Shown here in pieces: positions 1-45,001 of a DNA stretch of 64,000 nt. The translations under genes and the position numbers were made by a program. This DNA comes from Candidatus Eiseniibacteriota bacterium (GTDB lineage: Bacteria; Eisenbacteria; RBG-16-71-46; CAIMUX01; WJJG01), in assembly GCA_023129715.1 (NCBI GenBank), contig JAGMBO010000054.1, positions 1-64,000 of the forward strand, in the 5' to 3' direction. The notes beneath the pieces are model-generated. The model searched no databases. It was given only the letters and a program-made list of their open reading frames with translations, and was not told where the DNA came from. Each line of letters opens with the position of its first letter. The stretch's first letter is position 1.

Positions 1-3000
1 GCGATCCTGCTCCTAGTTCTGCCGCTCAGCTTCAGCGCGGCGGCCGCGCAAGAGAATCTGCAACACGCGCTGGTCTGTTACGCGGGCCCTGGAGGTGCCA
101 GCCTGGAGGCCAATGCGGTCATTGCGCAGCGCTACCGTCTGGGAATCACCGGGAATAGCGCGGGCAGCGGAGCGCAAGAGGTCAAGCAGCTGCGGCCTGA
201 CTTCCAGTGGTACGTCTACAACTCGATCACCGACAACTACGTCCACTCCACGACGAGCAATGAGCACGCTTTGCTCGAGGACTTCGCCGCCCAGCAGGGC
301 TGGGACCCCGAGGAAGGTTACCTGCACTTCTACGACGATACGGTGCTGAAGCTGCAGGGCGATACCGTCTCCGTTCCCGGCTGGGGCGGTGGCAGTGCCG
401 AGACCCCCGCCGAGGCGCGCGTTCCAGTCTACTACTCGAACTTGAGCCGCCGCGCCTGCCACTTCGCCACCCCCGAGGCGCGCCAACTCCACCTCTGGGT
501 GGTTCTGGCCACCACGATTGACATGACCTTCGCGGGCACCGATCTCTACCCCGACGGGATCTTTCTCGACAACTGTGCCTACCGGCTCTTCAACTGCGGC
601 ACCCTCCTCGAGGGCGGCCATGTTCTCGAGGCCCCCGGACAGCCGACGATCGGCAGTTCCGCATTCCAGGACTGGCACTGGTCGAGCAGTCTGGGCCCGT
701 TCCTGACCGCGCTCAAAGACACCCTCGAGACTTCAGCTTCCTGGTCTCCAGACGGCCAGCGCAAGCACCTGATGATCAACTGCTCGAACGCCTGGAGTGA
801 TGACTACGTTGCCCGCGATGTGGCCGATGTGCTCTTTCTGGAGTTCGAATACAGCCCCGTACGCGACCACGGCAGCTCGCTGCTCGGCCAGGCCTGGCAG
901 CGTGACAGCCTGGCGGCGGCCGCCGGGATCCGCTCCTTCTACGCGCCGACGATGACCTGCTCGCGCCCCCCCTACCCGGGCGAGATCCCCTACGAGGAAG
1001 CGCTGATCGGAGGCCTTACCTGGCATCTGGCCACCCGCACCGAGGAGTCGCTGCTCTTCCTCTTTGGCACCTCGAGTCCCAATACAGCCGGGTGGGACAC
1101 GCTGACCTGGCGCGGGTGCGTCGATGTCGCGGCCGAGGAGTTGGGCACCGCCCAGGGCGCTCCCTATGTCTACGCGGAGGGAACCGACCCGCTCGGCCAG
1201 AACTACCGCGTCTGGGCCCGCGACTACGAGAACGGGCTCGTGCTGGTGCGCAACCGCTGCCGCTGGGATGAGGGGATCGAGCCGGAGACGGCCGTCTCGC
1301 TGCCGCTGCCGAGCCCGATGGCGCGCGTGGCCCCCTCCGGAGAGATCGGCTTATCCACCTCCACGGTCGCAATGCGCAACGGCACCGGCACGATCCTGCT
1401 CGGCACTCCCGGAGCACCACCGGACAACCCACCGGTGGCCGAGTTCTCGGCCACCCCCACTGCGGGAACCGTCTCGCTGGCAGTCGCCTTCACCGACCTC
1501 TCCACCAACTCGCCCACTTCCTGGGCATGGATCTTCGGCGATGGCGGGACCTCCAGCCAGTGCGACCCATCCCACGTGTACCAGGAGCCCGGAACCTACA
1601 CGGTGTCGCTCAGGGCCACCAACGCCGATGGATCGGACACCGAGACCAAACTCGACTTGATCACCGTAGAACCTGGGGCCGTGGCCCCGCTGGCGGAGTT
1701 CTCCGGCACACCTACCTCAGGAAGCACGCCCCTGACAGCCGCCTTCACCGACCTCTCCACAAACTCGCCCACTTCCTGGGCATGGATCTTCGGCGATGGC
1801 GGGACCTCGTCTGACCCTCACCCCAGTCATACCTACGAAGCTGCCGGAAGCTATGACGTTTCGCTGACGGTCGCCAATGCGCATGGGTCGGACACCGAGA
1901 CCAAGCTCACCTACATCACAGTGACAGCACTTCCCGCCGCCACGACGGCAGACTTCTCGGGCACCCCCAGGTCGGGTGAGGCTTCCGTGACAGTGCAGTT
2001 CACCGATCTCTCGAGCGCCGCCCCCACGACTTGGGCGTGGATCTTCGGCGACGGCGAGAGCGCAACCGCCCAGCATCCCACTCACACTTATGAGGGGCCG
2101 GGAACTTACACCGTCTCTCTCACCGCGACCAATGCTGGTGGTACTGATACTGAGACCAAAACCGCCTACATCTCAGTGAGCGCCGCGCCCAGCGCTCCGC
2201 TCGCCGAGTTTCATGCCACGCCGACCTCTGGCTCCCCGCCCTTGGCAGTCAAATTCGAGAATCTCTCGCTGAATGAACCCACCGCGTACAGCTGGGAGTT
2301 CGGAGACGGCGGCATTTCGACGGCCGCCAACCCGGCCCACACGTATGCCTCCGCCGGCACCTACACCGTCTCACTGACCGCAACGAACGCGGCCGGCACG
2401 GACACCGAAACGAAGAGGGACTACATCACCGTAACGGAGACTTACCCCCTTCCAGTTGCCGACTTCAGCGGCGTTCCCAGCTCCGGCACCATCCCACTAA
2501 CCGTTGCCTTCAACGATGCTTCGACCAACAAACCGACATCCTGGTCCTGGGACTTCGGAGATGGAGCTGCCGCGACGACGGCGAATCCGACCCACACCTA
2601 TTCGGCTGCCGCAACCTATACCGTGACGCTCACCGTCAGCAATGCCTTCGGGACGCACACGGCAACGAAGATCGATTATATCACTGCGAGCGCGGAACTC
2701 TCCCCGCCCGTCGCGGCCTTTATTGGGTCTCCGACCTCCGGCTCGGCGCCACTCACAGTACACTTTACGGACCAGTCATCCGGCAGTGCGGCGACGTGGT
2801 TCTGGGAGCTCGGTGACGGGGCCACCTCTACACTAGCCAATCCCACACACACATACGTCACGGCCGGGACGTACACCGTCTCGCTCACGGCCGCCAATGC
2901 AGCCGGGGAAAGCACTGCAACCCGCACGAACTACATCTCTCTGAGTGAGCCGACTGCTCCTCCGGTAGCCGCGTTCTCCGCCGAACCCCACAGTGGTACC

Positions 3001-5520
3001 GCTCCGCTAACGGTTCAGTTCTCCGATCAATCGGCTGGCGATCCGAGTTCCTGGGCCTGGGCCTTCGGTGATGGAGCAAGCTCGACCGAGCAACATCCGA
3101 GCCACATGTACAGCGCTGCGGGCGACTATACCGTGACGCTCACTGCAGCCAACGCGTATGGGGAACAGACCCGGATGGCACCCGATTACATCTCCGTCTC
3201 CGTTCCTCCTCCCCCGCAAGCCGATTTTGCCGCCAGCGCGACCTCAGGCACCGCGCCTCTAACAGTCACTTTCAGCGATCTTTCGCTCAATGGGCCGACG
3301 TCCTGGTTTTGGAGCTTCGGCGACCAGGCCAGTGCCACCTCGAGCCACCCAACCCATATCTATGCGAGTCCAGGCAGCTATAGCGTTTCCCTCGTGGCCG
3401 CAAATCCCCACGGGACCGACACGTGCACCAAGACCGAATACATCACCGTCCTCGCCCAATCGTCCGCCCCGGAGGCGGACTTCACCGCACAGTGCACCCA
3501 AGGCATCGCTCCGTTAACCGTCCCCTTTGCCGATGCATCCAGCAATGATCCGACTGCCTGGAACTGGGAGTTCGGTGACGGTGAAGGTTCGAGCGCTCAG
3601 AACCCCACCCACGTCTACCAAGCGGCGGGAACCTACACAGTAGTCCTCACCGCGACCAATGCTCATGGTTCCGCCACCAGGGCCAGAACTGCCTACATCA
3701 GGGTAGCCGACGCCCCTCTGCCGCCTCGTGCTGCGTTCGGGGCGACACCGGCCACAGGAGTCGCCCCGCTGGCCGTGGAGTTCACCGATCAGTCCACTCA
3801 GGCACCGCAGACCTGGTCATGGAGCTTCGGTGACGGCGCTACCTCTGCCATTCAACATCCAGTTCATACCTATACATCCCCGGGAAGCTATACCGTCGAA
3901 CTTACCGTCAGCAACGCTGACGGGGTGGACAGCGACTCCCGGACCGACTATATCAAAGTGCTTGCCTCGCCAGCGCCCCCGGTGGCCGACTTCTCTGTCG
4001 ATCCAACTACTGGGAGTGCGCCCCTTGCCGTAACGCTTACCGATCGATCGTCGAACAGCCCAACCGACTGGTCGTGGGACTTCGGTGACGGTGATAGCTC
4101 TGCTGTCCAGAGTCCGCAGCATACCTACGAGCACCCGGGAAGCTACTCGGTTTCGGTGACCGTATCGAACTCGGAAGGCTCGACGACGAAGACGAAGCTT
4201 GACTGCGTGATCGTGTCGGCGCGACCCGCGCCTCCTATCGCCGACTTCTCGGCTGAACCGAGCAGCGGACATGCTCCTCTCCGAGTGCGGTTCAGGGACA
4301 ACTCGACGAACGTACCGACGAGCTGGCACTGGAATCTTGGCAATGGGGCAACTTCACGCGAGCAGAACCCCATGTGCACCTACGAGTATCCAGGGACCTA
4401 TAGCGTCACGTTGACAGCCGCGAATGCTGACGGCTCAGATGCGGTGAGTAGGAGCGGCTACATCTGCGTGACGGCGGCGCCAGTCCTACCCGCGGCCGCT
4501 TTCCTCGTGGATCCAGCATCGGGAATTGCTCCGCTGACGGTCAGTTTTACCGATGCTTCCACCGGCTTCCCCACGAGTTGGTCCTGGCGCTTCGGAGACG
4601 GCGACAGCGCTTCGCTTGGCAGTCCCACGCATACCTACACTTGCGCCGGGGTCTACACCGTCACTCTCACCGTGTCGAACGCCGACGGCACCGATACCAC
4701 GTCTGTCAGCGAGTGCGTCACCGTCACCGCGGCGCTCCGGCCACCGGCGGCGGATTTCTCCGCCGACCCATCCTCGGGCAGGGCCCCGGTGGCCGTCCAG
4801 TTCACCGATCTCTCGACAGGAGCACCAACAGCGTGGGTCTGGGATTTCGGTGATGGGAACTACGGCCATGTCCAGCATCCCCTGCACACCTATGAACTTG
4901 GCGGCACCTACTCGATTACGTTGGCGGTCGCCAATGCCGATGGAGCCGACACCACGACACGTACGGACATGATCCGGGTGATGCCCTCACGCAGCGCACC
5001 GATCACCGACCTGGCCGGGACCCCCACCGACGGGACAACGCCGCTCACGGTCCACTTCACCAGCCTGGCGACCAATGAGCCGACTTCCTGGTCATGGGAT
5101 TTCGGCGACGGCGGCACGTCGATCGTCGAGAACCCGCAGTATACGTTTCAAACACCTGGGTTCTACACAATCACCCTCACGACGACGAATGCGGCGGGCT
5201 CGACCTCGGAGACAAAGGCTGGCTACATCGCCGCCACCGCCGCACCGCCTGACGAGAACCCCTTCGGATTCGCCCCGAACCAGTCGAATCCCTGCACTCC
5301 GCAGGGCAGGATCACCTTCTCTCTTCCGTATGCGGGAGAAGCCCGGCTGGAGCTCTTCGACCTACGTGGCCGGTGTCTCTCCCTGCTGGCTGCCGGACAC
5401 CTGAGCGGAGGCCTGCACGTCGTCCCTTGGGAATCGAAGCGCCTCTCAACCGGCGTCTACTTCCTTCGCCTTACCTGGGAGGCAAGGACGGAGACGAAGC
5501 GGCTCACTCTCGTGAAGTGA
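1..5520 (+). CDS. Secreted glycosidase-like protein with 15 PKD domains and C-terminal sorting domain (5' end cut by window)
   Basis: The frame is open from base 1 and begins inside a signal peptide (AILLLVLPLSFSAAAAQ), so only the first few codons lie outside the window. Codons 20-470 resemble a TIM-barrel glycosidase-like region; the stretch YPDGIFLDN around 550-575 is typical of hypothetical glycosyl hydrolase families such as GHL15/DUF4015. From about 1426 to 5250 there are 15 consecutive PKD domains of about 85 codons each, recognised by repeated W-x-FGDG and GTYTVSLT motifs; domain 12 has a degenerate NLGNG. The last 90 residues (NPF..., SLPYAGEARLELFD, GVYFLRL) form a FlgD-Ig/Por-like C-terminal domain of the kind used for secretion or anchoring. 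Likely role: cell-surface or extracellular adhesin or polysaccharide-active protein. Catalytic activity is unproven. Confidence 0.85.
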   Translation, partial: AILLLVLPLSFSAAAAQENLQHALVCYAGPGGASLEANAVIAQRYRLGITGNSAGSGAQEVKQLRPDFQWYVYNSITDNYVHSTTSNEHALLEDFAAQQGWDPEEGYLHFYDDTVLKLQGDTVSVPGWGGGSAETPAEARVPVYYSNLSRRACHFATPEARQLHLWVVLATTIDMTFAGTDLYPDGIFLDNCAYRLFNCGTLLEGGHVLEAPGQPTIGSSAFQDWHWSSSLGPFLTALKDTLETSASWSPDGQRKHLMINCSNAWSDDYVARDVADVLFLEFEYSPVRDHGSSLLGQAWQRDSLAAAAGIRSFYAPTMTCSRPPYPGEIPYEEALIGGLTWHLATRTEESLLFLFGTSSPNTAGWDTLTWRGCVDVAAEELGTAQGAPYVYAEGTDPLGQNYRVWARDYENGLVLVRNRCRWDEGIEPETAVSLPLPSPMARVAPSGEIGLSTSTVAMRNGTGTILLGTPGAPPDNPPVAEFSATPTAGTVSLAVAFTDLSTNSPTSWAWIFGDGGTSSQCDPSHVYQEPGTYTVSLRATNADGSDTETKLDLITVEPGAVAPLAEFSGTPTSGSTPLTAAFTDLSTNSPTSWAWIFGDGGTSSDPHPSHTYEAAGSYDVSLTVANAHGSDTETKLTYITVTALPAATTADFSGTPRSGEASVTVQFTDLSSAAPTTWAWIFGDGESATAQHPTHTYEGPGTYTVSLTATNAGGTDTETKTAYISVSAAPSAPLAEFHATPTSGSPPLAVKFENLSLNEPTAYSWEFGDGGISTAANPAHTYASAGTYTVSLTATNAAGTDTETKRDYITVTETYPLPVADFSGVPSSGTIPLTVAFNDASTNKPTSWSWDFGDGAAATTANPTHTYSAAATYTVTLTVSNAFGTHTATKIDYITASAELSPPVAAFIGSPTSGSAPLTVHFTDQSSGSAATWFWELGDGATSTLANPTHTYVTAGTYTVSLTAANAAGESTATRTNYISLSEPTAPPVAAFSAEPHSGTAPLTVQFSDQSAGDPSSWAWAFGDGASSTEQHPSHMYSAAGDYTVTLTAANAYGEQTRMAPDYISVSVPPPPQADFAASATSGTAPLTVTFSDLSLNGPTSWFWSFGDQASATSSHPTHIYASPGSYSVSLVAANPHGTDTCTKTEYITVLAQSSAPEADFTAQCTQGIAPLTVPFADASSNDPTAWNWEFGDGEGSSAQNPTHVYQAAGTYTVVLTATNAHGSATRARTAYIRVADAPLPPRAAFGATPATGVAPLAVEFTDQSTQAPQTWSWSFGDGATSAIQHPVHTYTSPGSYTVELTVSNADGVDSDSRTDYIKVLASPAPPVADFSVDPTTGSAPLAVTLTDRSSNSPTDWSWDFGDGDSSAVQSPQHTYEHPGSYSVSVTVSNSEGSTTKTKLDCVIVSARPAPPIADFSAEPSSGHAPLRVRFRDNSTNVPTSWHWNLGNGATSREQNPMCTYEYPGTYSVTLTAANADGSDAVSRSGYICVTAAPVLPAAAFLVDPASGIAPLTVSFTDASTGFPTSWSWRFGDGDSASLGSPTHTYTCAGVYTVTLTVSNADGTDTTSVSECVTVTAALRPPAADFSADPSSGRAPVAVQFTDLSTGAPTAWVWDFGDGNYGHVQHPLHTYELGGTYSITLAVANADGADTTTRTDMIRVMPSRSAPITDLAGTPTDGTTPLTVHFTSLATNEPTSWSWDFGDGGTSIVENPQYTFQTPGFYTITLTTTNAAGSTSETKAGYIAATAAPPDENPFGFAPNQSNPCTPQGRITFSLPYAGEARLELFDLRGRCLSLLAAGHLSGGLHVVPWESKRLSTGVYFLRLTWEARTETKRLTLVK
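1486..1808 (+). repeat. Near-identical DNA segment shared by PKD domains 1 and 2
   Basis: Bases 1486-1553 recur at 1741-1808, exactly 255 bases (85 codons) later, with one mismatch (c at 1506, a at 1761). The other PKD domains share protein motifs but have diverged at the DNA level, so this pair looks like a recent duplication or gene conversion inside the array. Confidence 0.9.
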
Positions 5521-7904: not shown

Positions 7905-8666
7905 CTACGGTTTCTCGAGGATGGCGAGGATATTCGTCCGCAGGGGCTTCATCCCCCGCATGATCAAGAGCCGAATCCAGAGTAGCTCCAGAAGAGCCAG
8001 CGGGGCGAAAGTGGCAAACTTCGCCTGTGAACAGATCAGCCGCAGATCAACCACCCGCAACCCGGTCGATTCCGCGAGCTGGCGGATGCGCCGAGGGGTG
8101 TTCATCCGATAGAGCGCCGGAAAGACATCTTCCTCCTCTCGGCCCTCGAGTCGGCGGACCAGCACGTTCTTGATCGCCTGAGGAAGGAGCCGTGCCATCA
8201 GCGTCGAGTATCCAATCAGATTCGGTGTGTGCAGGATCAGGCGCCCCCGCCGCCGCATGACTCTCGAAGTCTCGCGCAGCGCCCGGGCTGGCTCGGCGAG
8301 ATGTTCACCGACCATGTTGCTAGTGACCAGATCGAAGCTCTCATCGGCAAAGGGCAATCGCCCGATGTCTCCTCGCACTCTGGCCCGGATTGTCCGATGA
8401 CGACGCAGGGATTGCAGATCGTAGTCCAGACCGATGACCAGGCGTGCCGCGGAGACTAACTCGCTCTCCTCGGCCTGCCGCCACGGGGGAAGCAGCTGAT
8501 GGCCGCATCCGAGATCGAGCCAGTCGAGGCAACGTGGCTGTGAAGTCCGCAGTAGGTCTTCATAGACCCTCTGGGAATACCGCAGACCGGGAACCAGCCT
8601 GTTCTGTAGCCGCCAATACCGCTCAAGAGACGCCCTTTGCATCATCCGCTCCAGTAACCGCGTCAC
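7905..8666 (-). CDS. Class I SAM-dependent methyltransferase
   Basis: 253 residues from a GTG at 8666; an ATG at 8645 (MMQRASLERYW) is an alternative start. Motif I is LDLGCG around residue 52, followed by the acidic end of strand 2 (VIGLDYDLQSL) and the Methyltransf_11 style segment ARALRETSRVMRRRGRLILHTPN. The C-terminus has hydrophobic stretches, as in methyltransferases acting on lipids or glycans. The nearest genes are the sulfatase and the PEP-CTERM gene, but it stands alone on this strand. The substrate cannot be told from sequence. Confidence 0.8.
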   Translation of the reverse strand: MTRLLERMMQRASLERYWRLQNRLVPGLRYSQRVYEDLLRTSQPRCLDWLDLGCGHQLLPPWRQAEESELVSAARLVIGLDYDLQSLRRHRTIRARVRGDIGRLPFADESFDLVTSNMVGEHLAEPARALRETSRVMRRRGRLILHTPNLIGYSTLMARLLPQAIKNVLVRRLEGREEEDVFPALYRMNTPRRIRQLAESTGLRVVDLRLICSQAKFATFAPLALLELLWIRLLIMRGMKPLRTNILAILEKP

Positions 8667-9060
8667 GTGTCTGCTGCACTCTGCAGAGGGGCATCTCGGC
8701 CCCGTGGACGGAGATTACCCTGCCACTGGCTTCGATGCTCGCCTGATCCATGCGTTCCATCGCCGACGAGAGAGCCGGAGGAGCCGGGATGTGCTCAGGG
8801 CCGTGGCCTCTCGCAGAGGTCTGACCGCCACTCGGCGGCCGCTGTCGACGCCTGATTGCGTCACCGGAACCGACAAGACGTCGGGACCGCTGAGTAGGCA
8901 CAACCACATACAGACCAGCCAGTTGCCCGCCAATGCCACTCAGTGGAGAGCGCGGGTGTCAGGGGAGCCTTACACTATACCCCCTTTGCCCTACTGACGA
9001 CGTTTCGCTGCATCACTCCAAGTGACCACACGTCAATAGCTTGAAGGTTCCACCGCGTGA
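8667..9060. other. Intergenic region with no recognised gene
   Basis: About 400 bases between the divergent methyltransferase and PEP-CTERM genes. Short open frames here overlap each other on both strands and have no ribosome binding site or recognisable motif. It presumably holds the methyltransferase promoter, but I see no convincing element. Confidence 0.5.
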
Positions 9061-9076
9061 TGGACCCCATCTTGCA
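9061..9076 (+). promoter_or_regulatory. Sigma-54 (-24/-12) promoter of the PEP-CTERM gene
   Basis: TGGACCCCATCTTGCA matches the consensus TGGCAC-N5-TTGCW at T, G, G, C and the whole TTGCA, with the required ten bases between GG and GC. Transcription would start near 9088, giving a leader of about 70 bases before the ATG at 9157. The island encodes a PrsR-like sigma-54 activator (25049-26464), and PEP-CTERM genes are known targets of PrsK/PrsR. The rpoN gene itself is not in this window. Confidence 0.7.
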
Positions 9077-9156
9077 CCATAGGGGATATGCAGGAAAGGT
9101 TTAGTTTTCGCTAACGGCTTATCGTACTTGGGCTTGCGAATCATCGGAGGACGGAC

Positions 9157-9987
9157 ATGAAACACCTAGTCACTTGCATGATGGTCTTGGCGCTCGTCGC
9201 CGTCGCGGCACCCAGTGCCAACGCGACGTACTTCACCCTCACCGACATCAACTCGGTGGTCGACATCGACAGCCAGGCCGGCATGCTCAATTGGGTCGTC
9301 GACGATGTCGACCACCTCTTCTTGCAGGCCTTCTGGATCCGCACCGGCCCTACCGGCCCCGAAGTGCCCTTGGGCAATTTCTACAGCGGCGCCGATGTCT
9401 GGGGGCCGAGCATTGTTGACCTCTACTTCAACAATCATCCCGACTTCGACATCAAGGTGCGCTACATCCTGACCGGGGGCTCCATGGGCAGCCAGGTCTC
9501 GGACGTCGCCGAGGTGATCCGGGTTGCCGCCAAGCAGGACATCCCCGGCAGTCTCCAATCCAACGACGTGCACTTCTTCCAGTATTCCGACTTCGACCTG
9601 AACGCCACGCCCAGCGACGATGCAGTCCGCTTCCCCAACGCGAATGCCGTACAGCAGGTCGATGCCGGCGCGATACTCTCTGAGACGGTCGTTACGCCCC
9701 CCCCGAGCCACCATGAGGGTGAAAACCAGTGGCCGGACTTGCGTAACAGGCTCAACGACGCTGGCCCCACGACCCTCAGTGACCTGCCTGCCATCGGCGG
9801 TGGCTGGCTGGCGGGCGATATCGAGTGGGCCTTCCAGTGGGACAAGACGATCACGCAGACCACTCCGCTGCTGATCAGCAAGGACAAGCATTTGCAGCCG
9901 GTGCCCGAGCCGACCACCCTGTTGCTGCTCGGTGTCGGCCTCCTGGGTGCGGAAGTTGCCCGCCGGCGCCGCAAGAGCCGCCGCTAG
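9157..9987 (+). CDS. PEP-CTERM sorting-domain protein (exosortase substrate)
   Basis: 276 residues with a signal peptide (cleavage probably after residue 23, ANA) and a textbook C-terminal sorting signal: V-P-E-P at 249-252, a hydrophobic segment LLLLGVGLLGAEVA, then a basic tail RRRRKSRR. The start is fixed by GGAGGA seven bases before the ATG. The central part is acidic, aromatic-rich and unlike any enzyme I recognise; it may be a structural matrix protein. This is the only PEP-CTERM protein in the window, while the exosortase is 8 kb away. It is preceded by a sigma-54 promoter and followed by a strong hairpin, so it is probably monocistronic. Confidence 0.93.
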   Translation: MKHLVTCMMVLALVAVAAPSANATYFTLTDINSVVDIDSQAGMLNWVVDDVDHLFLQAFWIRTGPTGPEVPLGNFYSGADVWGPSIVDLYFNNHPDFDIKVRYILTGGSMGSQVSDVAEVIRVAAKQDIPGSLQSNDVHFFQYSDFDLNATPSDDAVRFPNANAVQQVDAGAILSETVVTPPPSHHEGENQWPDLRNRLNDAGPTTLSDLPAIGGGWLAGDIEWAFQWDKTITQTTPLLISKDKHLQPVPEPTTLLLLGVGLLGAEVARRRRKSRR

Positions 9988-17556: not shown

Positions 17557-17717
17557 CAGCCGCGCTTGACACCTAGGGAGAAATCCCCACGCCCGTCAAC
17601 CGGCGCAGAGCTCGGTTGGAAGAACTCCCCGGAGACATGCCGCCACGGGCTCCCGCTCGGCCGCGCAGGGCAAACATCCTTCAGCCCAGTTGTTCGCCTG
17701 TGCTAGACTGCGGCGCT

Positions 17718-18710
17718 ATGAAGACCTCTCCGGTGCAGCGTGAGACCGATCCCGTGGCCTTGCCGGCCGGCCGGCAGCTCAGCCGACTCGCTCCCGCGCT
17801 GGTCCTGCTAGCCGGCGTCCTCTACGCCTACGCGCCCGTCCTCCGGGAGCTTTTCCGCGACTGGATCCGTGATCCGAACTACCATCACGGCTTTCTGGTG
17901 CCCCTGATCTCCATCTACCTGATCTGGAAACAACGTGGCAGGCTGCGGGCGACGTCTCGCAAGCCGGCTCTCCTCGGACTGCTCGGGATTCTCGCGGCGG
18001 CTGCTCTGCTCGTGGTCGGCACGGCGGGCGCCGAAGTCTTCACCCAACGCGTCAGCCTGATTGTGCTTCTCGGGTCGTCGGTCCTCTTCCTTTTCGGCTG
18101 GCGTCACTTCGGCCTGGTCCTCTTTCCCCTCGCCTTCCTGCTCCTGGCGATTCCGCTACCTTATGTCATCTACTACAGCCTGACGGGGCCCATGCAGAGC
18201 TATGCGGCCAAGTTCGCGATTTGGGGGCTCAAGGGGATCGGCGTGCAGGCCTTTGCCCAGGGCAATATCATCCATCTTGCCGGGACGAGCCTCGAGGTGG
18301 CCGAAGCCTGTAGTGGCATCCGCTCCCTCTATGCCTTCCTCGCCCTGGGGGCCTTGGTCGCCTATGCCACCGCGATCCCTTGGTGGACGCGCATCCTGGT
18401 GTTCCTGGTCACGATCCCCTTGAGTATCGCCGGCAATGCCGTGCGGGTCTGGGGAAGCGGTCTCGGTGCCACCCTGATCGGTCCGGAGGCAACGCACGGA
18501 ACCATCCATGAGTTCTTCGGCCTGCTCGTTTTTGCCGGTTCGCTCATCTTGTTCGCGATCTTCCGCAGTATTGTGAGGCAGCTATGGTCTTCCGGTACAT
18601 CGCCGCCGCCTTCATCGTCATCGCCGCAGGAGTCTATGCCGGGGAACTTCGCACCGGGCGCCCCTTTACCGGCGCGCTTCCCCCGCTCGAAAGACTCCCC
18701 GCCGAGTTGA
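17718..18710 (+). CDS. xrt: Exosortase (PEP-CTERM transpeptidase)
   Basis: 330 residues from ATG 17718; the longer frame back to 17616 lacks family similarity. About eight transmembrane segments. The catalytic triad is intact: C198 in EACSGIRS, R243 in NAVRVWG and H264 in THGTIHEFFG. The N-terminal segment with DPNYHHGFLVP matches the XrtA-like family. The enzyme cleaves PEP-CTERM proteins at the inner membrane, such as the one at 9157. Unusually, after the last membrane segment the frame runs on for about 50 Pro/Ser-rich residues that overlap the first 127 bases of the EpsI gene. I see no proof of a frameshift. Confidence 0.93.
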   Translation: MKTSPVQRETDPVALPAGRQLSRLAPALVLLAGVLYAYAPVLRELFRDWIRDPNYHHGFLVPLISIYLIWKQRGRLRATSRKPALLGLLGILAAAALLVVGTAGAEVFTQRVSLIVLLGSSVLFLFGWRHFGLVLFPLAFLLLAIPLPYVIYYSLTGPMQSYAAKFAIWGLKGIGVQAFAQGNIIHLAGTSLEVAEACSGIRSLYAFLALGALVAYATAIPWWTRILVFLVTIPLSIAGNAVRVWGSGLGATLIGPEATHGTIHEFFGLLVFAGSLILFAIFRSIVRQLWSSGTSPPPSSSSPQESMPGNFAPGAPLPARFPRSKDSPPS

Positions 18711-20536: not shown

Positions 20537-21373
20537 GTGAATCGGATTCAGGCGCTTGGCATTGCCGCCTGGGCATGGCGGGCAACGGGCGCCGTTACGC
20601 TGCGTCCGCTGCTCTGGCTGCCCTTTGTATTCGTGGCCGCCCTCCAGCTGGGGGCCTTGCTCCTGCTGGTCGGATTTCATCGCCCGCTCTTGCTCCCCCT
20701 GGGACTCCCGCTTGTCGACCTGCTCGGCGGGGAACCGGCCAGCCACTACCCGCTGCTCTACTACCAACTGCCGGCGATGTTCTTCAAGCTCAACCTCGTC
20801 ATCAGCACCCTCTTCGCGTCGGTGGCGGCCGGCGCCGGAACACTGCTCTTCGCACGCAGCTACGGCTATCCCGTTGAGGAGGGAATTTGGGAGCGCACGC
20901 TACGCTGCGCGCCTCGTCTCATCGCCGTGACCCTCATCGTCGTCGCCTGCCTTCTGGGCGTTACCCTGCTCGCCTCGCTCGTCCCGCGCGAGGCGGCCAT
21001 GGAGAGTTTGCTGGTGCGCTGGGGCCTGCGCGGTGCCTTGCTCGGGCTCTTCATCCTCCTTCAAAGCCTACTGATCTACACCACACCCTGGATCGTACTG
21101 CTCGGACACCGGATTGGCCCCGCCATTCGCGATTCCGTCCGGGTCACCCTGCGCACGCTGTTTCCGACCTTGATCGCCGTCGGCATTCCACTGCTCCTGC
21201 TCTTCCCCTTCTCCTATGTTACCGGCCGCGTCGATCTCTTGGCCGGCCAACTCCGTCCCGAACTCATCGCCACCCTGCTCGGTCTGCAAGTTGTTTGCCA
21301 GATGCTGGTGACGTTCTTTCTGATCGGCGGCGTCACCCGGCTGTTCCTCTGGAGAGTGGAGGCGGCGCGATGA
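20537..21373 (+). CDS. Six-span membrane protein of unknown function
   Basis: 278 residues starting at GTG 20537, chosen because GGGAGGA lies nine bases upstream. About six hydrophobic segments, with RPLLWLPFVFVAALQLGALLLL first and a long loop containing GYPVEEGIWERTLR. The architecture (paired helices, no catalytic motif) resembles DUF4013-like or DUF975-like membrane proteins. It heads a chain of six genes linked by ATGA overlaps that includes prsK and prsR, so it is probably part of the sensory or assembly side of the PEP-CTERM system. Confidence 0.7.
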   Translation: MNRIQALGIAAWAWRATGAVTLRPLLWLPFVFVAALQLGALLLLVGFHRPLLLPLGLPLVDLLGGEPASHYPLLYYQLPAMFFKLNLVISTLFASVAAGAGTLLFARSYGYPVEEGIWERTLRCAPRLIAVTLIVVACLLGVTLLASLVPREAAMESLLVRWGLRGALLGLFILLQSLLIYTTPWIVLLGHRIGPAIRDSVRVTLRTLFPTLIAVGIPLLLLFPFSYVTGRVDLLAGQLRPELIATLLGLQVVCQMLVTFFLIGGVTRLFLWRVEAAR

Positions 21374-22878
21374 GAAGGACAGCATGCTTCTTGGTCGTCG
21401 GCCTGCTCGTGCTGGGGTGCGGCAGTGAGCGGTTCGTCGGGGAGCGCTACCGTGCCGAGCGCGATCTCTGGCGGGCCAACTGGGAATACGAGAGCCTCTC
21501 GATTCGCCCCGCGGAGGTCAGTGGGCAACAGTGGACTGACTTGGCCGCGCGGTACGAGGCGATTGCGGATCGTTACGCACCACCCGGCACGCAGCCGCCT
21601 GCCGATTCGCTTCCCCAGCAGGTCGCCACCCTGGCTGCCCGTGCACTCTTCAACGCCGCGATGCTCCATGCCGTCGTGGGCGATACCGTCCGCACCGAGG
21701 CGATCTACGCGCGCATGAGTCGCGACTTCGCCACCATCCCCGCGGTCGGTGCCGAGGTCGCCCTGGTCCGCGCCCGCATGGCCGAGCGTTCCGGTGAACC
21801 CGCCCAGGCGGCGCGCCTCTACCAAGCAGTCGTCGATCGGATTCCCCCCGAAGCCCAGGGGAGCGGCGTCGCTCGGCTAGTCTTCGACTTGCCTCTCCGG
21901 ATCGCCCGCTTGGGCGCGCGCGCCCAGGGCGGCACAGACCTCGAAACCCACTATGCACCGGCGCGCAGGTACTACGAGGCCATGGTTCGAGACGATCCCG
22001 ATGCCCACCTGCGGGTCGAGGCCCAAACACACCTCGCGGAGATCGCCGCCGACTTGCAGCGAACCGGCGAGGCGCTCACGGCCCTGCGTGACTTGGAGCG
22101 GCAGCTGCGGACCATGCAAGACCCGCCCCGTGACCCATGCACCATCCGCCTGGCGATTGCCATTGTCCAGCGGCGCGGGGGGACGCCCCTCGATTCGAGC
22201 CGCGCGACCCTGCGCTCACTGTTGGACGACTACCCCGACTGTGAGCACGTACCCCAGGCGCTGATGGCCCTCGCGGAAAACGCCAACCAGCGCGATGCGG
22301 TCGCCGAGGCGCTCGCCTACCTCGATCGCATCCCGCTCGAGCATGGCGACAATGTCGACGCGGCCTCCGAGGCTCTGCTCGCCCGGGCCAAGCTTCTCGA
22401 GAGCCGGGACCGCTGGCCCGAGGCGCTCGAAGCCTACCGGGTCCTGCCCGTGCGCTACCCGGTGACGCGCGCCGCGCTGCGCGCGCCGCTCGAAATCGCC
22501 AAGCACTACGAGAACGACGCCGAGTCGCGCGCCAGCGCCCTGGCGCAGGCCGAACGCAGCTATCGCGACTTCGTCACCCAGTACCCGCCGGGCCCCCTGA
22601 CCAGCTTTGCTCGCCAGAAGCTGATCGAGTCGCTGGTTCTGGCGGAACGCCACGAACCGGCCATCGACGAGATGCTGGATCTCAGCCGCGCCCTCGGGCA
22701 GACACCGCGTGCGGCGACCCTGGTGATCGCCGCCGCCAAGCTGGCCTACGAGAACCTTGCCGACACGTCCCGGGCGACGGCGATTCTCGATCAGGCGGCC
22801 CAACTCTACCCGCAGGCCGAAATCGGTAGGTGGGCGGCCGCCGAGGCGGCCCGTCTCAGAGGAACGCAAGCGCCATGA
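21370..22878 (+). CDS. TPR lipoprotein (PrsT-like)
   Basis: 502 residues. ATG 21370 overlaps the previous stop by four bases. MRRTACFLVVGLLVLGC is a lipoprotein signal with the Cys at residue 17. The rest is helical pairs with TPR-like periodicity (AALFNAAMLHAVVGD, ARLYQAVVDRIPPEA, EALAYLDRIPLEHGD, QAERSYRDFVTQYPPGP). Similar outer-membrane TPR lipoproteins, named PrsT in classical PEP-CTERM loci, sit next to prsK/prsR. It starts well upstream of prsK and ends on its ATG. The PrsT name is an inference from context. Confidence 0.75.
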   Translation: MRRTACFLVVGLLVLGCGSERFVGERYRAERDLWRANWEYESLSIRPAEVSGQQWTDLAARYEAIADRYAPPGTQPPADSLPQQVATLAARALFNAAMLHAVVGDTVRTEAIYARMSRDFATIPAVGAEVALVRARMAERSGEPAQAARLYQAVVDRIPPEAQGSGVARLVFDLPLRIARLGARAQGGTDLETHYAPARRYYEAMVRDDPDAHLRVEAQTHLAEIAADLQRTGEALTALRDLERQLRTMQDPPRDPCTIRLAIAIVQRRGGTPLDSSRATLRSLLDDYPDCEHVPQALMALAENANQRDAVAEALAYLDRIPLEHGDNVDAASEALLARAKLLESRDRWPEALEAYRVLPVRYPVTRAALRAPLEIAKHYENDAESRASALAQAERSYRDFVTQYPPGPLTSFARQKLIESLVLAERHEPAIDEMLDLSRALGQTPRAATLVIAAAKLAYENLADTSRATAILDQAAQLYPQAEIGRWAAAEAARLRGTQAP

Positions 22879-25052
22879 CCCTGCAGAAGGCCATCCTCAT
22901 CGTTGCGATGATCTCCACGATGCTCCCCGTCGTGGCGGCCTTCCTCCGTGAGCGCTCTCGCCATGTCCTGACGATCGCCACGCTGCTAACCGCCGTCGCG
23001 ATCTGCACGTCACTCGCAATCGTTCTCCGCCTGGTGACCATCGGTCCCCAGACGAGCCCCAACGCTTGGGTCTATGCCTTGATGGCCTCCGGCGTCCCGC
23101 TCCTTCTGGCCGGCTCGGTGCACTCGCTCTGCTTCGGCCGCCAGCGTCCCCAGCTGGCCCTGCGCGATTCCCGGCGGACGCTGATTCTTCTCACCATTCT
23201 GGGAGGCGCCTTCCTGGCGATGATCGGCCACCACGCGTTCATCACCGGATACGACTGGACGGCCGGCCGCGGCACACTCCATCTCGGTTCACTCGGCAAG
23301 GCGTACCTGAGTTACCTACTCGTCGGCATCGTCTTCGTCGGATACAACCTGGAGCGAACCTACCGCGTCTCCTCGATCGAATTGCGCTACCGTATTCGCC
23401 TGGCAGTGATCGGGCTCTTCGGCCTGCTCGGGTTCCTGACCTTCATCCTCGCCACCGGGATGCTCTATGCCTCGATCGGCATGGGCAAGCTCGTCGCCTC
23501 CGGTTTGCCGATCATCTTCGCCTCGGGGATGCTCGCTTTCGGCTACCTGCGCGGGGCGATTACCGACGTCACCGCACCCGTCTCGCGCAAGGTGGTCTAT
23601 TCCTCGTTCACCGCCATGGGGGCCGGCCTCTTCGTGATCGCGATCGGCGCCGCCGCCCAGGTAGCCTCGTTGACCGGCTGGTCACCGGACGAGATCCTGA
23701 TCGTCACGATCGGTTTTCTCGTCGTTCTAGTCGGTATGCTCCTGCTCTTCTCGAATCGCTTCCAGCGCTCGGTGCGCCGCTATATCGATCGCAATTTCTA
23801 CGTCAACCGCTACGACTACCGCGCCCAATGGTCGAGCGTCACCGAGTGTCTCGCGAACGCCACCGACCGGGCCAGTGTGCTCGATCGGACGGTGGTTTTC
23901 CTGCAGGATGTTTTTGCCGCCGACCTGCTCACCATCGCGCTGCGTGACGAGGCAACTCACGAGATCTGCCCCGTTCGCGGCCTCGGCGCCGAGAATGGAC
24001 AGCCCGTCCTCGAGCCCGACTCCCCCTTGGCGCGCCACCTGACCACCGAAGGGCAGACCCTGCTCCTCGATCGCAGCCCGCACGATTTCGCCTACATCCC
24101 GATCTACGCCGAAAGCCATGTCTGGCTCGATGCCACCGCGAGCCAGATCGTCGCCCCGCTGCTCGATAATGGCGAGCTGGTCGGCACGCTCGGTTTGGCA
24201 CGCCGCAACAAACATGATCCCTTCACCTATGAAGATGTAGCCCTTCTCGATAGCATCGCCTCGCATGTCGGCGCCACCCTGCGGGCCATCCGACTCGCTG
24301 CAGAGCTGCACGAGGCCCGCGAGAGCGAGCTCCTCTCTCAGTGGAGCAGCATGTTGCTCCACGACTTGAAGAACCACATGGTGCCGTTGCGTTTGGTCGC
24401 GAAGAACTTGATCGCCGAGCGGGACGATCCCCAGGTTGCCCTCACCTGCGCCCAGGACATCGATCGCGTCGCCGACCGGCTCGAGCGCGTCGTCCAGACT
24501 CTCGGGAAGCTGCGGGGCAACCCGACGCTGGGCAAGGAAGTGCTCTCACCCAACCACATCGTCTGTCAGACGGCTTCCGAGATGCACCTCGACCATCACG
24601 CATCGGTGACTACGCACTTCCATCTAGCCGCCAAGCAGGGTGTCAGCGGCGACGCGGACATGTTGCGCCGCGTCCTGCGCAACCTGATGGTCAACGCGCT
24701 CGAGGCGATGGATGGAAAGGGCGTTTTGACGCTCACCACCCGGGACTCGGCATCGACAACCGAGACGGATGCGCAGGTCTTGATCACCGTGCGGGATACC
24801 GGGCAGGGGATCCCCGAGGATTTCCTGCGCACCAAGCTTTTCCATGCCTTCGCGACGACGAAGAAACGAGGGCTCGGCCTCGGTCTGTATCAATGTCGCG
24901 CCATTGTGCGCGCGCATGGCGGAGACCTGAGTGTCAAGAGCCGCCTGGGCGAGGGCACCATCTTCCAGATCGCACTAGCGGGTGTGCCGCAGCAACCTTC
25001 CCCGCTTCCCCCTCTTGGGGCTGACGCACGCGCCAAGCGAGTCGCCCCATGA
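22875..25052 (+). CDS. prsK: PEP-CTERM system sensor histidine kinase PrsK
   Basis: 725 residues from ATG 22875 (ATGA overlap with the lipoprotein gene). Domains in order: about eight membrane segments (residues 1-290), a GAF domain (about 320-470), then a kinase core with phospho-acceptor H496 in LLHDLKNHM, N box RNLMVNALEAM, G1 box DTGQGIP and G2 box GLGLGLYQC. This layout, and the position directly before a sigma-54 response regulator, is diagnostic of PrsK. It presumably phosphorylates PrsR in response to an envelope signal, controlling PEP-CTERM protein genes. Confidence 0.93.
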   Translation: MTLQKAILIVAMISTMLPVVAAFLRERSRHVLTIATLLTAVAICTSLAIVLRLVTIGPQTSPNAWVYALMASGVPLLLAGSVHSLCFGRQRPQLALRDSRRTLILLTILGGAFLAMIGHHAFITGYDWTAGRGTLHLGSLGKAYLSYLLVGIVFVGYNLERTYRVSSIELRYRIRLAVIGLFGLLGFLTFILATGMLYASIGMGKLVASGLPIIFASGMLAFGYLRGAITDVTAPVSRKVVYSSFTAMGAGLFVIAIGAAAQVASLTGWSPDEILIVTIGFLVVLVGMLLLFSNRFQRSVRRYIDRNFYVNRYDYRAQWSSVTECLANATDRASVLDRTVVFLQDVFAADLLTIALRDEATHEICPVRGLGAENGQPVLEPDSPLARHLTTEGQTLLLDRSPHDFAYIPIYAESHVWLDATASQIVAPLLDNGELVGTLGLARRNKHDPFTYEDVALLDSIASHVGATLRAIRLAAELHEARESELLSQWSSMLLHDLKNHMVPLRLVAKNLIAERDDPQVALTCAQDIDRVADRLERVVQTLGKLRGNPTLGKEVLSPNHIVCQTASEMHLDHHASVTTHFHLAAKQGVSGDADMLRRVLRNLMVNALEAMDGKGVLTLTTRDSASTTETDAQVLITVRDTGQGIPEDFLRTKLFHAFATTKKRGLGLGLYQCRAIVRAHGGDLSVKSRLGEGTIFQIALAGVPQQPSPLPPLGADARAKRVAP

Positions 25053-26464
25053 GCCCCAGTGAAGCCCCGCAGCAACCCACCGCGCTGCCGAAACTGCTGA
25101 TCGTCGATGATGAGCCCGAGATTCTCAGCCAGCTCGGACTAGCGCTGCGTAGGGACTACGAGGTGTTCACCGCCGACAGTTCGGCAGCCGCGTGGAAGAT
25201 TATCCAGAGCCGGTCTCCCGATCTCATTACGCTCGATCTTGCCCTCGACAATGCCGACCCGGAGAGCGGCTTCTCGCTGCTTGAGAAGTGTCTGAAGCAC
25301 GACCCCTATATGAAGATCGTCCTGATCACCGCAAACGACGATGAGCACAATGCCCTGCGCGCCGTAGCCCAGGGAGCCGCCGACTTCTTCGCCAAGCCCG
25401 TCGACATCGACGAGTTGAAGGTCCTCCTACGCCGAGTGCTCTCTCTCGGGCGCCTGGAGCGGCGAAATGCCGAGCATCTGCGTCGCCTGGGTGACGAGCA
25501 ACGCCTCGGCGCACTTGTCGGGCAGTCCGCGGAGATGCGCACGATCTTCCGCAAGATCGAGAAGGCCGCCTCGGCAGATGTAGCCATCTTGATTCTTGGA
25601 GAGAGCGGCACGGGCAAGGAACTCGTCGCCAAGGAGATCCATCGGCTCAGCTCACGCGCCACGAAACCGCTGGTGAGCATCAATTGTGGTGCGATTCCGG
25701 CGAATCTCGTCGAGAGTGAGCTCTTCGGGCACGAGAAGGGGGCCTTCACCGGCGCGCACACTGCCCGGCCGGGCCGCCTCGAGATGGCTCAAGGGGGTAT
25801 CGTCTTCCTCGATGAGATCGGAGAGCTGCCCCTCTCCCTTCAGGTGACCCTGCTGCGATTCCTGCAAGAGCATGAGATCGAGCGCGTCGGCGGACGGGAA
25901 ACGATCGAGTTGGACGTGCGAGTTATCGCCGCCAGCGGTCGCGACCTCAAGGCGGAGATCGCCCAGGGGCGCTTCCGCCAGGATCTCTACTACCGTCTCG
26001 CGGTCGTTGACTTGCGCCTCCCTCCCCTGAGAGAGCGTCGAGACGACATCCTGCTGCTGGCCCAGTACTTCATGGATCGCTATAGCAACCAATTCGGGCG
26101 CGGCCGTCTCTCACTGACGGCCCGCGCGAAGCACGCCATTCGGAAGTATCCCTGGCCCGGCAACGTGCGCGAGCTCGAGCACCGGATCCAGAAGGCGGCC
26201 CTGATGGGCGGGAGCTCCAAGTTGGATACCCCCGATCTGGAGCTCGGCTCCGAGCCGAGCGGCAGTGACATAACGCCCCTGAGAGAGGCGCGCCAAGAGA
26301 CCGACCGCCAGACGATCCAGGAGGCGCTGCAGGTTTCGCGCGGAAACATCTCACGGGCCGCCAAGATGTTAGGGATCTCCCGGCCGAGTCTGCATACCTT
26401 GCTGACGAAGCTGGAGATCAATGCCCATGACTTCAAGACCGGCATGGCGCGGGAGAAAGAATGA
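25049..26464 (+). CDS. prsR: PEP-CTERM-box response regulator PrsR (sigma-54 activator)
   Basis: 471 residues. Receiver domain with phospho-acceptor D63 (LITLDLAL) and K109-type lysine in FAKPVD; AAA+ domain with Walker A GESGTGKE, the sigma-54 contact loop GAFTGA and Walker B GGIVFLDEIGELP; C-terminal Fis-type HTH (NISRAAKMLGISRPSLHTLL). The intact GAFTGA shows it should act on sigma-54 holoenzyme. The obvious target in the window is the -24/-12 site at 9061. ATGA overlaps on both sides tie it to prsK and to the next gene. Confidence 0.95.
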   Translation: MSPSEAPQQPTALPKLLIVDDEPEILSQLGLALRRDYEVFTADSSAAAWKIIQSRSPDLITLDLALDNADPESGFSLLEKCLKHDPYMKIVLITANDDEHNALRAVAQGAADFFAKPVDIDELKVLLRRVLSLGRLERRNAEHLRRLGDEQRLGALVGQSAEMRTIFRKIEKAASADVAILILGESGTGKELVAKEIHRLSSRATKPLVSINCGAIPANLVESELFGHEKGAFTGAHTARPGRLEMAQGGIVFLDEIGELPLSLQVTLLRFLQEHEIERVGGRETIELDVRVIAASGRDLKAEIAQGRFRQDLYYRLAVVDLRLPPLRERRDDILLLAQYFMDRYSNQFGRGRLSLTARAKHAIRKYPWPGNVRELEHRIQKAALMGGSSKLDTPDLELGSEPSGSDITPLREARQETDRQTIQEALQVSRGNISRAAKMLGISRPSLHTLLTKLEINAHDFKTGMAREKE

Positions 26465-29440: not shown

Positions 29441-30253
29441 ATGTCGCTGTGGCATAGAAACAAACGCGCGCCGCATGGCGCTTCCAGGATCCCAAGCGAG
29501 AAGGCCTTCGACTTCTCTCCCTGGACCGCGCTGGCTGCCTCTGCGCTTCCCGGTGATCGCCGCCCCCACGTTGCCGATCTGCGTCCGGGGCCCATCGAAC
29601 GCGGCATCGCCTTGATCCTACTGCTCGCCTGCTCGCCGCTGATGCTCCTCGTCGCCCTGGCCATCAAGCTCGACTCACCCGCCGGGCCGATCTTCTATCG
29701 CCAGGATCGCGTCGGTCTCAATCGCCGCGGTCAGGCCCTGGCCGGCGAGGAACACGCCGTCGAGTCGCGCGATCGGCGCAGGCCCGGTGCCGAGCGGCGC
29801 ACGACCCCGGGAGTCGGTGAAGTCTTCAGGATCTACAAGTTTCGCACGATGGTGCCCGACGCCGAACAAACCACGGGACCTGTCTGGGCTGCGGCCCATG
29901 ATCCCCGCGTCACGGGCGTCGGCGCACTCCTGCGGCGTTCCCGCCTCGATGAGTTGCCCCAGTTGATCAACATCATCCAGGGGCACATGCGCTTGATCGG
30001 GCCCCGTCCCGAGCGTCCCCATTTCGTCCAGCATCTCTGCGTCGAGATCCCCGACTATCCCGATCGTCAGCGCGTCGCCCCCGGGATCACCGGCCTCGCC
30101 CAGGTGGAACGCGAATACGATTCCAACGTCGACGCGGTGCGCAAGAAGATCATGTACGATCTCTTCTATGTGCGGAACCGCTGCAACTTGCTGGATCTCA
30201 AGATCTTACTCAAGACGATCGATGTCATGCTGCGCGGCCGCGGGGCGCGCTAG
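29441..30253 (+). CDS. Initiating sugar transferase (polyprenyl-phosphate glycosylphosphotransferase)
   Basis: 270 residues, a short PssY/WbaP-C type with one membrane segment (IALILLLACSPLMLLVALAIKL) and no N-terminal multi-span part. Conserved blocks: GPIFYRQDRVGLN, FRIYKFRTM, RRSRLDELPQLINI, RLIGPRPERP and GITGLAQV. A 40-residue insertion (residues about 98-130, EEHAVESRDRRRPG...) interrupts the usual RVG...F-x-IYKFRSM spacing. It puts the first sugar phosphate on undecaprenyl phosphate, starting the repeat unit that the flippase at 15883 exports. Confidence 0.92.
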   Translation: MSLWHRNKRAPHGASRIPSEKAFDFSPWTALAASALPGDRRPHVADLRPGPIERGIALILLLACSPLMLLVALAIKLDSPAGPIFYRQDRVGLNRRGQALAGEEHAVESRDRRRPGAERRTTPGVGEVFRIYKFRTMVPDAEQTTGPVWAAAHDPRVTGVGALLRRSRLDELPQLINIIQGHMRLIGPRPERPHFVQHLCVEIPDYPDRQRVAPGITGLAQVEREYDSNVDAVRKKIMYDLFYVRNRCNLLDLKILLKTIDVMLRGRGAR

Positions 30254-30289
30254 CGAGGGCAGGCGGCGACCTGCCCGGGAGCTTCCCGA

Positions 30290-31585
30290 TTGATCGCGAT
30301 CAACGCACAGGAGTCACGCACAGGGCGTGAAGGGCCAGCTGGAGCCGGCGAGCGGTTTCCGGTCATCGGCCACTTGATCGCCAGCAATTTCGCGGGAGGT
30401 CCCGAGAAACAGATTCTGGGCCTCTCGGCCGCCCTCGCGGAGGAGGGCTGGCGCACGGTAATCGGCTCGTTTCGCGAGCGGCGCCCCCAGGTCGAGATCA
30501 TTGAATTGGCCCGGGAGCAAGGCCTCGCCACCTTTCTCATCGACACCCGCTCGCCGTTCTGTCCCGCCGCGGCGCTCCAACTGCGACGCGTTCTGCGTCG
30601 CCAGGCGATCGACGTTCTCGTCACCCATGGGTACAAGGCCAATCTGATCGGCTATCTCGGCAATCATCCTGCCCGCGTCGCGCAGCTTCCTATTCTGCGC
30701 GGCTACACCGCGGAGAATGCCAAGCTGCGCCTCTACGAGGCGGTCGATCGGCGCCTTCTGCGGCGCTTCCCGCACGTGCTGTGTGTTTCCTCGGCCACCC
30801 GGCGCCTGGCCCTCGCATTCGGCCTGCGCCCCGAGCGCGTCAGCGTCCTCCACAATGCGATCGACTGCCCGACCGATGTGTCGCCCCGCAACCTGCGGAG
30901 CGCCTACGGCCTGCCGGCAGCGGCCCGCATACTCGTCGCCGCCGGCCGCCTGAGTCGCGAGAAGGGACATCGCTACCTGATCGGCGCCCTTGCCGCGCTG
31001 CGCGATGACCAGCCGCCGATTTGCCTGGTGATCTTGGGGGCGGGGCGCGAGGCGCCCCGTCTGGCGGCCCAAATCGAACAGGCGGGCCTCCAGGAGCGCG
31101 TTCGGTTGGCCGGTTTCCGGCGTGACCTGCTCCCCGAGCTTGCCGGCGCCGACTTGGTGGTCAATCCCTCCCTGAGCGAGGGCCTGCCCAACGTGCTCCT
31201 GGAGGCCCTCGCGCTGAGACGCCCGGTGGTGGCCACCGATGTCGGCGGCGTTACCGAGCTGGTCGTTCCGGGAGAGAGCGGGCGGCTGGTGCCGGCCGCG
31301 GATGCCCCCGCGCTGGCCGAGGCGATTGGTCAGGCGCTGCGCGAGCAGGGCCGCACGCAAGAGATGGCCGAAGAGGGGTTCCAGCGTGTCGTGCACGAGT
31401 TTTCCTTCGAGCGCCAGGCGATGCACTTCAAGCGCTTCTGTACCGAGGCGCTCTCGCACCGCCGGGAATCCGCGCTCCCCCGCGCCCGGCGCGCCAGGTC
31501 GGAGAGCAGGCGCGAGGATGGATGTTCCGAAGACCATCGCCGCCGGCCCGGCGGGCTCGACCGCCCGGCTGCACATGGAGGATGA
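30290..31585 (+). CDS. GT4 glycosyltransferase
   Basis: 431 residues from TTG 30290; GTG or later starts are possible because the conserved part begins at FPVIGHLIASNFAGGPEKQI. The GT-B pattern is complete: N-terminal GGPEKQ loop, VTHGYKANLIG, the second Rossmann AAGRLSREKGHRYLI, and the donor site NPSLSEGLPNVLLEALALRRPVVATDVGG with the E-x7-E motif. It adds a sugar to the lipid-linked repeat. The C-terminal 30 residues are Arg-rich and unconserved. Confidence 0.88.
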   Translation: MIAINAQESRTGREGPAGAGERFPVIGHLIASNFAGGPEKQILGLSAALAEEGWRTVIGSFRERRPQVEIIELAREQGLATFLIDTRSPFCPAAALQLRRVLRRQAIDVLVTHGYKANLIGYLGNHPARVAQLPILRGYTAENAKLRLYEAVDRRLLRRFPHVLCVSSATRRLALAFGLRPERVSVLHNAIDCPTDVSPRNLRSAYGLPAAARILVAAGRLSREKGHRYLIGALAALRDDQPPICLVILGAGREAPRLAAQIEQAGLQERVRLAGFRRDLLPELAGADLVVNPSLSEGLPNVLLEALALRRPVVATDVGGVTELVVPGESGRLVPAADAPALAEAIGQALREQGRTQEMAEEGFQRVVHEFSFERQAMHFKRFCTEALSHRRESALPRARRARSESRREDGCSEDHRRRPGGLDRPAAHGG

Positions 31586-31588
31586 CGG

Positions 31589-32545
31589 ATGAGAACTCTG
31601 CTGGCCTGTTGCCTGATCCTGATCGGCGCGGCCGGAGCGGCCGCTCAGGTCGAGACGACGCCTCCCCCCGCCGTGGGCCAAGAGGAGTACCGGATCGGTC
31701 CCGGCGACGTCCTGCGGATCCAGGTTTGGGGCCGCCCCGAGCTGACCGGGCCGGTCACCGTCGATGCGACTGGAAGAATCCAGCTCCCGCTGATCGGCCG
31801 GGTCGAGGTTGCCGAACGTACGCCCGCCGAACTGGGCGAGTATCTGACCGAGCGCTATCTCCTGGTCGATCCGAGCACCCCCGCGGTGCTGGCCGCTGTT
31901 GCCCAGTACAACAGCCGCAGCATCGCGGTCGTCGGCGAGGTCCACGGCCCCGGGCGCTACCCCTTCCGCAGCATTCCCGGAGTCTGGAGCGTGCTCCTCG
32001 CCGCCGGCGGACCGACCCCCAATGCCGATCTTACGCGCGTCGAGATCGTCCGCGGCGAGGAGTCCACTGATGGACCGCAGTCGGTCACCATCGACCTCTC
32101 GCGAGGCATCCAGAAGACCCCCGCCGAAGAACTCCCCGCTCTGCAGCCGGACGATACGATCGTCGTGCCTTCCGTGATCGCCAGTGCCGCCCCCGGGAGC
32201 AGGATTCAGGTGCTCGGCGCCGTGCGCACACCCGGGACCTTCCCGGTCAGCGCCGCCGAGACAGTCACCCAGGCAATTGCCCTTTCCGGGGGCTTCCTGC
32301 CGAACGCCGACTTGCGCAAGATCCGGTTGACGCGCACCACCAGTCGCGGGATCGTCTCCTACCAGTTGGATCTGCAAGGCTTCCTCTACGACGGCCAGCC
32401 CCGCGCAGATCTGCCCATGCAGCCGGGCGATACGATCACCGTGCCGAGGGAGAAATCGTTCATGCGTTCGGTTCTGGATGGCTTCCTGCGCCTTGCCCCC
32501 CTTGTCACAGCCGGCGTCAGCCTCGCATGGGCGGCGTCACGATGA
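31589..32545 (+). CDS. Polysaccharide export protein (Wza-like, Poly_export and SLBB)
   Basis: 318 residues with signal peptide MRTLLACCLILIGAAGAAAQ. The Poly_export domain begins at YRIGPGDVLRIQVWG (about residue 32), and two SLBB domains follow (SIAVVGEVHGPGRYPF and IQVLGAVRTPGTFPV). A C-terminal hydrophobic segment (LAPLVTAGVSLAWA) could span the outer membrane, as in Wza. No lipobox Cys at the cleavage site. It starts three bases past the GT4 stop and is followed by the chain-length gene. Confidence 0.92.
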   Translation: MRTLLACCLILIGAAGAAAQVETTPPPAVGQEEYRIGPGDVLRIQVWGRPELTGPVTVDATGRIQLPLIGRVEVAERTPAELGEYLTERYLLVDPSTPAVLAAVAQYNSRSIAVVGEVHGPGRYPFRSIPGVWSVLLAAGGPTPNADLTRVEIVRGEESTDGPQSVTIDLSRGIQKTPAEELPALQPDDTIVVPSVIASAAPGSRIQVLGAVRTPGTFPVSAAETVTQAIALSGGFLPNADLRKIRLTRTTSRGIVSYQLDLQGFLYDGQPRADLPMQPGDTITVPREKSFMRSVLDGFLRLAPLVTAGVSLAWAASR

Positions 32546-45000: not shown

Positions 45001-45001
45001 A

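Follow-up and report, generated by a model that had tools for sequence, protein, structure and literature searches.

A predicted sigma-54 promoter and putative PrsR-binding palindrome upstream of a PEP-CTERM gene in Candidatus Eisenbacteria

What controls production of an exosortase substrate outside the Proteobacteria? The question is raised by a PEP-CTERM gene at 9157-9987 of a 64,000-nucleotide stretch of DNA (the window). The initial annotation of the window proposed a circuit running from PrsK through PrsR and sigma-54 to the PEP-CTERM substrate, in a lineage that did not look proteobacterial. The lineage call was right: the window comes from Candidatus Eisenbacteria and is taken as not proteobacterial because a relative of the same family (G002) is a Candidatus Eisenbacteria MAG (VGIY01). 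As to the circuit, we think it likely that a sigma-54 promoter at 9061-9076 drives the gene and is activated by PrsK through PrsR, acting at a palindrome at 8957-8974. The palindrome, the promoter sites on orthologues and the co-occurrence of the parts support the proposal, which is nonetheless less new than was implied, since it was made for Proteobacteria in 2006 (PMC1569441).

The PEP-CTERM gene and its -24/-12 element

The gene and the elements assigned to its control region are as follows.

8957-8974 (extended 8956-8975), no strand: putative PrsR-binding palindrome TGTCAGGGGAGCCTTACA, 18 bp; a single pattern match, with the same box in G003 and G004
9061-9076, plus strand: predicted sigma-54 -24/-12 promoter element TGGACCCCATCTTGCA; a pattern match; the orthologues in G088 and a Nitrospirae MAG have stronger sites
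9086-9088, plus strand: predicted transcription start, placed 12 nt 3' of the GC element and about 70 nt before the ATG at 9157
9146-9150, plus strand: ribosome-binding site GGAGG, from the sequence
9157-9987, plus strand: PEP-CTERM protein of 276 amino acids with a signal peptide and a C-terminal PEP-CTERM segment (codons at about 9901-9975); TIGR02595 24.5 bits (cut-off 16), PF07589 32.8 bits (cut-off 20.7)

The sorting signal has its expected parts, namely a C-terminal PEP motif, a hydrophobic helix and a basic tail, and the genome encodes an exosortase. The gene is a single-gene unit preceded by about 490 bp with no credible gene, and both its upstream neighbour, a methyltransferase gene (7905-8666), and the next gene downstream lie on the opposite strand. 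Elsewhere in the window, a large multidomain protein (271-5520, plus strand) gives a weak match to a T9SS-type C-terminal sorting domain (TIGR04183), so the genome may hold a second surface-sorting route.

The exact -24/-12 spacing and full TTGCA reported for TGGACCCCATCTTGCA are both present. GG (9062-9063) and GC (9074-9075) are separated by exactly ten nucleotides, the TTGCA of the -12 half is complete, and 80 nt lie between the element and the ATG at 9157, start codons being taken as the farthest plausible ATG. Scored by a plain consensus count against TGGCACGN4TTGCW, the element matches at 9/12 positions with TGG and TTGCA intact. Matches this good number 41 on the two strands of the window, and the stricter TGG-N8-TTGCW occurs five times against 2.3 expected. 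Taken alone, the element is within chance, and it is the comparison with relatives that makes the site convincing.

Predicted promoter sites and the palindrome in relatives

The initial annotation had suggested that a palindromic enhancer common to PEP-CTERM genes might lie 80-200 bases upstream. In the window such a box, TGTCAGGGGAGCCTTACA, lies upstream, separated from the -24 element by 86 nt (box-to-site distance 104). The palindrome is imperfect and escaped a repeat search; it was spotted by eye and pattern-tested afterwards. TGTNA-N8-TNACA occurs once in the window and TGTNAGG-N4-CCTNACA has one exact match in the genome to which the window belongs (G000), each time the box itself; neither of two one-mismatch boxes elsewhere in G000 has a -24/-12 site at the right spacing. 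Two further pairs of box and -24/-12 site, at 39734 and 60162 on the minus strand of the window, had lower scores and were not considered further. A pattern combining a half-site with a -24/-12 site, run over ten genomes, proved too unspecific: of its three matches in G000 one was the window site, and elsewhere it gave both matches and control matches.

The box pattern was derived from the window alone and then sought in relatives. PEP-CTERM genes of G003, a genome of the same family, carry the -24/-12 sites TGGCATGCGAATTGCA, CGGCACGCAATGTGCA, TGGCACGGAAATTGCG and CGGCATGGAAAATGCA, and three of these genes have a box 123-127 bp upstream of the site, one of them a perfect TGTAAGGGCCTCCTTACA. 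G004 contributes two genes with site and box 120-122 bp apart, giving a range of 120-127 bp before strong sites in these two sister genomes; boxes at L140 and L136, about 200 bp from their sites, were not counted as having the same spacing. No match to the window protein was obtained among the proteins whose genes carry these sites in G003 and G004, and the shared region is therefore regulatory and not merely inherited with one gene; the putative enhancer is common to unrelated PEP-CTERM genes, much as had been anticipated. Across the family, the box scores 9-12 at the seven PEP-CTERM genes that have a -24/-12 site and 6-8 at the nine that have none. With the window gene left out, a full separation of six from nine would arise by chance once in 5005, by simple arithmetic. 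An upstream motif before the -24/-12 element is accordingly common to G000, G003 and G004, in a form and at a spacing that differ from the values published in 2006.

Farther afield, the window gene has an orthologue with TGGCATCTATCTTGCT in G088, a member of another phylum, and one with TGGCCCGCGCCTTGCT in a Nitrospirae MAG, scoring 10/12 and 11/12 respectively; both of these distant genomes bear PrsR. Planctomycete and verrucomicrobial MAGs also encode relatives of the gene, none of them with a site at 9/12 or better.

There are also exceptions close to home. Sites had been expected on the other PEP-CTERM genes of the genome, and this expectation failed for the sole other recognised one (L002, contig C112), which has a sigma-70-like promoter, TTGCCA-18-TATAGT, and no box; its homologues in G004 and G005 have no -24/-12 sites. 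Since this gene lacks a site and looks sigma-70 driven, the known regulon in G000 may consist of one gene. The closest orthologue of the window gene, in G002, likewise has a sigma-70-like promoter, TTGAAT-18-TAGAAT (L007:1361-1390), and no -24/-12 site. Together with the 41 equally good matches in the window, these two promoters are what could be said for regarding TGGACCCCATCTTGCA as fortuitous, the gene then having a sigma-70-family or ECF promoter that escaped recognition. We consider this quite improbable, as no sigma-70-like promoter is found in 8667-9200, the site is paired with a box that has no second exact copy in the genome, at a distance close to that seen in the relatives, and the distant orthologues in G088 and the Nitrospirae MAG have strong sites.

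The Prs genes and the candidate activator

If the gene has a sigma-54 promoter, as we think, it would need both sigma-54 and an activator. The initial annotation placed the latter 16 kb away, in an island encoding PrsK and a PrsR with the GAFTGA motif, and a PrsK-like/PrsR pair does lie at about that distance, at 22830-26464.

17616-18710, plus strand: XrtA-like exosortase; PF09721 223 bits, TIGR02602 over its cut-off, XrtA 200 bits against a cut-off of 208
20887-22878, plus strand: TPR protein upstream of prsK; TPR matches only
22830-25052, plus strand: PrsK-like histidine kinase with about nine transmembrane helices, GAF, HDLKN and HATPase; TIGR02916 293.5 bits, cut-off 300
25049-26464, plus strand: PrsR response regulator with receiver, sigma-54 AAA+ and Fis-type HTH domains; TIGR02915 513.7 bits, cut-off 502.6
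29441-36153, plus strand: exopolysaccharide genes (sugar transferase, glycosyltransferases, export protein, chain-length determinant, tyrosine kinase)

PrsR scores over its cut-off and has the Walker motif GESGTGKE and GAFTGA at residue 231 (25739-25756). The kinase adjoins it and has TIGR02916 as its best family by far, yet scores just under the cut-off and for that reason is named PrsK-like. The TPR protein gave no match to TIGR02917 (PrsT), and the true start codon of the exosortase probably lies farther downstream than 17616. Near the exopolysaccharide genes we also observed a sigma-70 family factor of RpoS/RpoD type (43900-45039, minus strand).

An absence of rpoN had been named as evidence against the circuit. 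G000 has two copies over the cut-off, each with the three sigma-54 domains. The genes for RpoN, PrsR, the PrsK-like kinase and the exosortase are all intact. The two copies form a divergent pair, L004 (contig C50) at 341.8 bits and L005 (contig C138) at 281.4 bits, with the RpoN box reading ARRTVAKYR in the first and HRRTVNKYR in the second. Several relatives also have two rpoN genes; in G002, an 86% complete genome with PrsK and with a PrsR that is cut by a contig end, the lower-scoring type alone was found.

Which activator goes with the sites can be approached through their distribution. PrsR candidates from G000, G002, G003, G009, G088, G147 and G160 group in a single clade (95/100), and PrsK occurs in exactly the same seven of 14 genomes. 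Sites at 9/12 or better stand before 8 of 23 PEP-CTERM genes in Prs-bearing Eisenbacteria, where shuffles predict 1.9 (P 3e-4), and before 13/22 in G088 and G147 (0.8 expected), compared with 2/25 in Prs-lacking genomes and 1/13 in G160. The antisense control gave a single site, in G160, and none in the other three groups. A further 16 PEP-CTERM genes from PrsK-lacking genomes had no sites, and 8/23 in Prs-bearing Eisenbacteria against 2/41 in genomes lacking Prs or PrsK gives a Fisher P of 0.003; these P values are rough, since genes sharing a genome do not count as independent observations. Several of the genomes are fragmented. Because rpoN is found in all twelve relatives checked (12/12), the sites track PrsK/PrsR better than they track rpoN.

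PrsK/PrsR and the control region occur together in G000 and most genomes, the exceptions being G004, which has sites and boxes but no PrsK or PrsR-clade protein in an 89% complete assembly, and G160, a Verrucomicrobia MAG (L036, L167) with PrsK and the top-scoring PrsR of the set (564.8 bits), whose 13 PEP-CTERM genes show no enrichment in -24/-12 sites. Another Eisenbacteria-phylum family, f10 (L215-L218 and others), includes many genomes with PrsK over the cut-off, and nearly all of those searched have no canonical PEP-CTERM genes; these genomes may rely on a different sorting signal or regulate other targets. A held-out test of sites in that family accordingly lacked targets, and the PrsK-lacking genomes from that search were kept as extra negatives.

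The exception of G004 bears on whether the promoter and enhancer are real but answer to some NtrC-type regulator other than PrsR, of which there is no shortage: about ten NtrC-type proteins in G000 match TIGR02915 at E < 1e-100. We judge such an arrangement unlikely, as the sites follow PrsR/PrsK better than they follow rpoN or NtrC-type proteins, which are present in every Eisenbacteria relative checked, the PrsR gene sits with the exosortase, and the half-site CTTACA is similar to TTTACA, with which the motif attributed to proteobacterial PrsR ends. We infer, then, that it is PrsR and not another NtrC-type activator that binds the box.

RNA polymerase with sigma-54 waits at its promoters in a closed complex, and in the mechanism that we propose it would do so at 9061-9076. 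The membrane kinase PrsK would sense a surface or envelope signal and phosphorylate PrsR, which would occupy the palindrome at 8957-8974, whose midpoint is about 121 bp upstream of the predicted start site, and open the closed complex with its GAFTGA loop. As phospho-PrsR would have to open the sigma-54 complex, the exosortase substrate would be produced only under PrsK stimulation. The window in this respect offers a compact test case, with one promoter, one box and one candidate activator.

Relation to known systems

Control of PEP-CTERM genes by PrsK-PrsR and sigma-54 was described by Haft et al. in 2006, only in Proteobacteria among the genomes then at hand (PMC1569441). There, a 17-nt motif ending in TTTACA is followed by a spacer of 63 +/- 11 nt (maximum 92), and the -24/-12 element precedes the start codon by some 71 nt (PMC1569441). 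The proposed circuit resembles theirs in that the PEP-CTERM gene forms a unit of its own behind a long non-coding stretch, in the order of motif and -24/-12 element, in the element's distance from the start codon (about 80 nt here, 71 on average there), and in the joint presence of the PrsK and PrsR genes within an exosortase/exopolysaccharide island. It differs in its host, which is not a proteobacterium, in its operator, an 18-bp palindrome with half-site CTTACA instead of 17 nt ending in TTTACA, and in its spacer, 86 nt here and 102-109 in the sister genomes. In G088, 12/18 PEP-CTERM genes have such -24/-12 sites, mostly with a 17-bp box, TGTCGG-N8-ACA, upstream.

It is tempting to read these differences as the history of an old cross-phylum regulon, in which the operator diverged with PrsR by lineage and members can switch promoter class, although we offer this only tentatively and as a whole. 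The operator would have become the 18-bp TGTNAGG-N4-CCTNACA in this Eisenbacteria family and the 17-bp TGTCGG-N8-ACA in G088, and the G002 orthologue, from a genome that yielded the lower-scoring rpoN type alone, would be a member that moved to a sigma-70-like promoter. Independently of that history, the same design in Eisenbacteria, in G088 and in the Nitrospirae MAG makes it probable that signal-controlled production of exosortase substrates is more widespread than the Proteobacteria. In a literature search covering few subscription journals, we found no paper joining Eisenbacteria with PEP-CTERM.

The closest experimental parallel is pepA of Aquincola tertiaricarbonis RN12, for which RpoN1 dependence and the start site were measured and PrsR is the probable activator (PMC9850573). 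Like the window gene, pepA is a PEP-CTERM gene with a -24/-12 promoter (TGGCAC/CTGCTT), a predicted upstream enhancer and PrsK/PrsR in the genome. Unlike it, pepA belongs to a betaproteobacterium and has a measured start and sigma-54 dependence, which for the window gene are predicted from sequence. For both genes the part played by PrsR is a prediction, and in the published work (PMC1569441, PMC9850573) PrsR stands as a predicted and not a proven activator. Judged from the genomes compared here, the window extends a known control circuit to another phylum, with a lineage-specific putative operator and a longer spacing.
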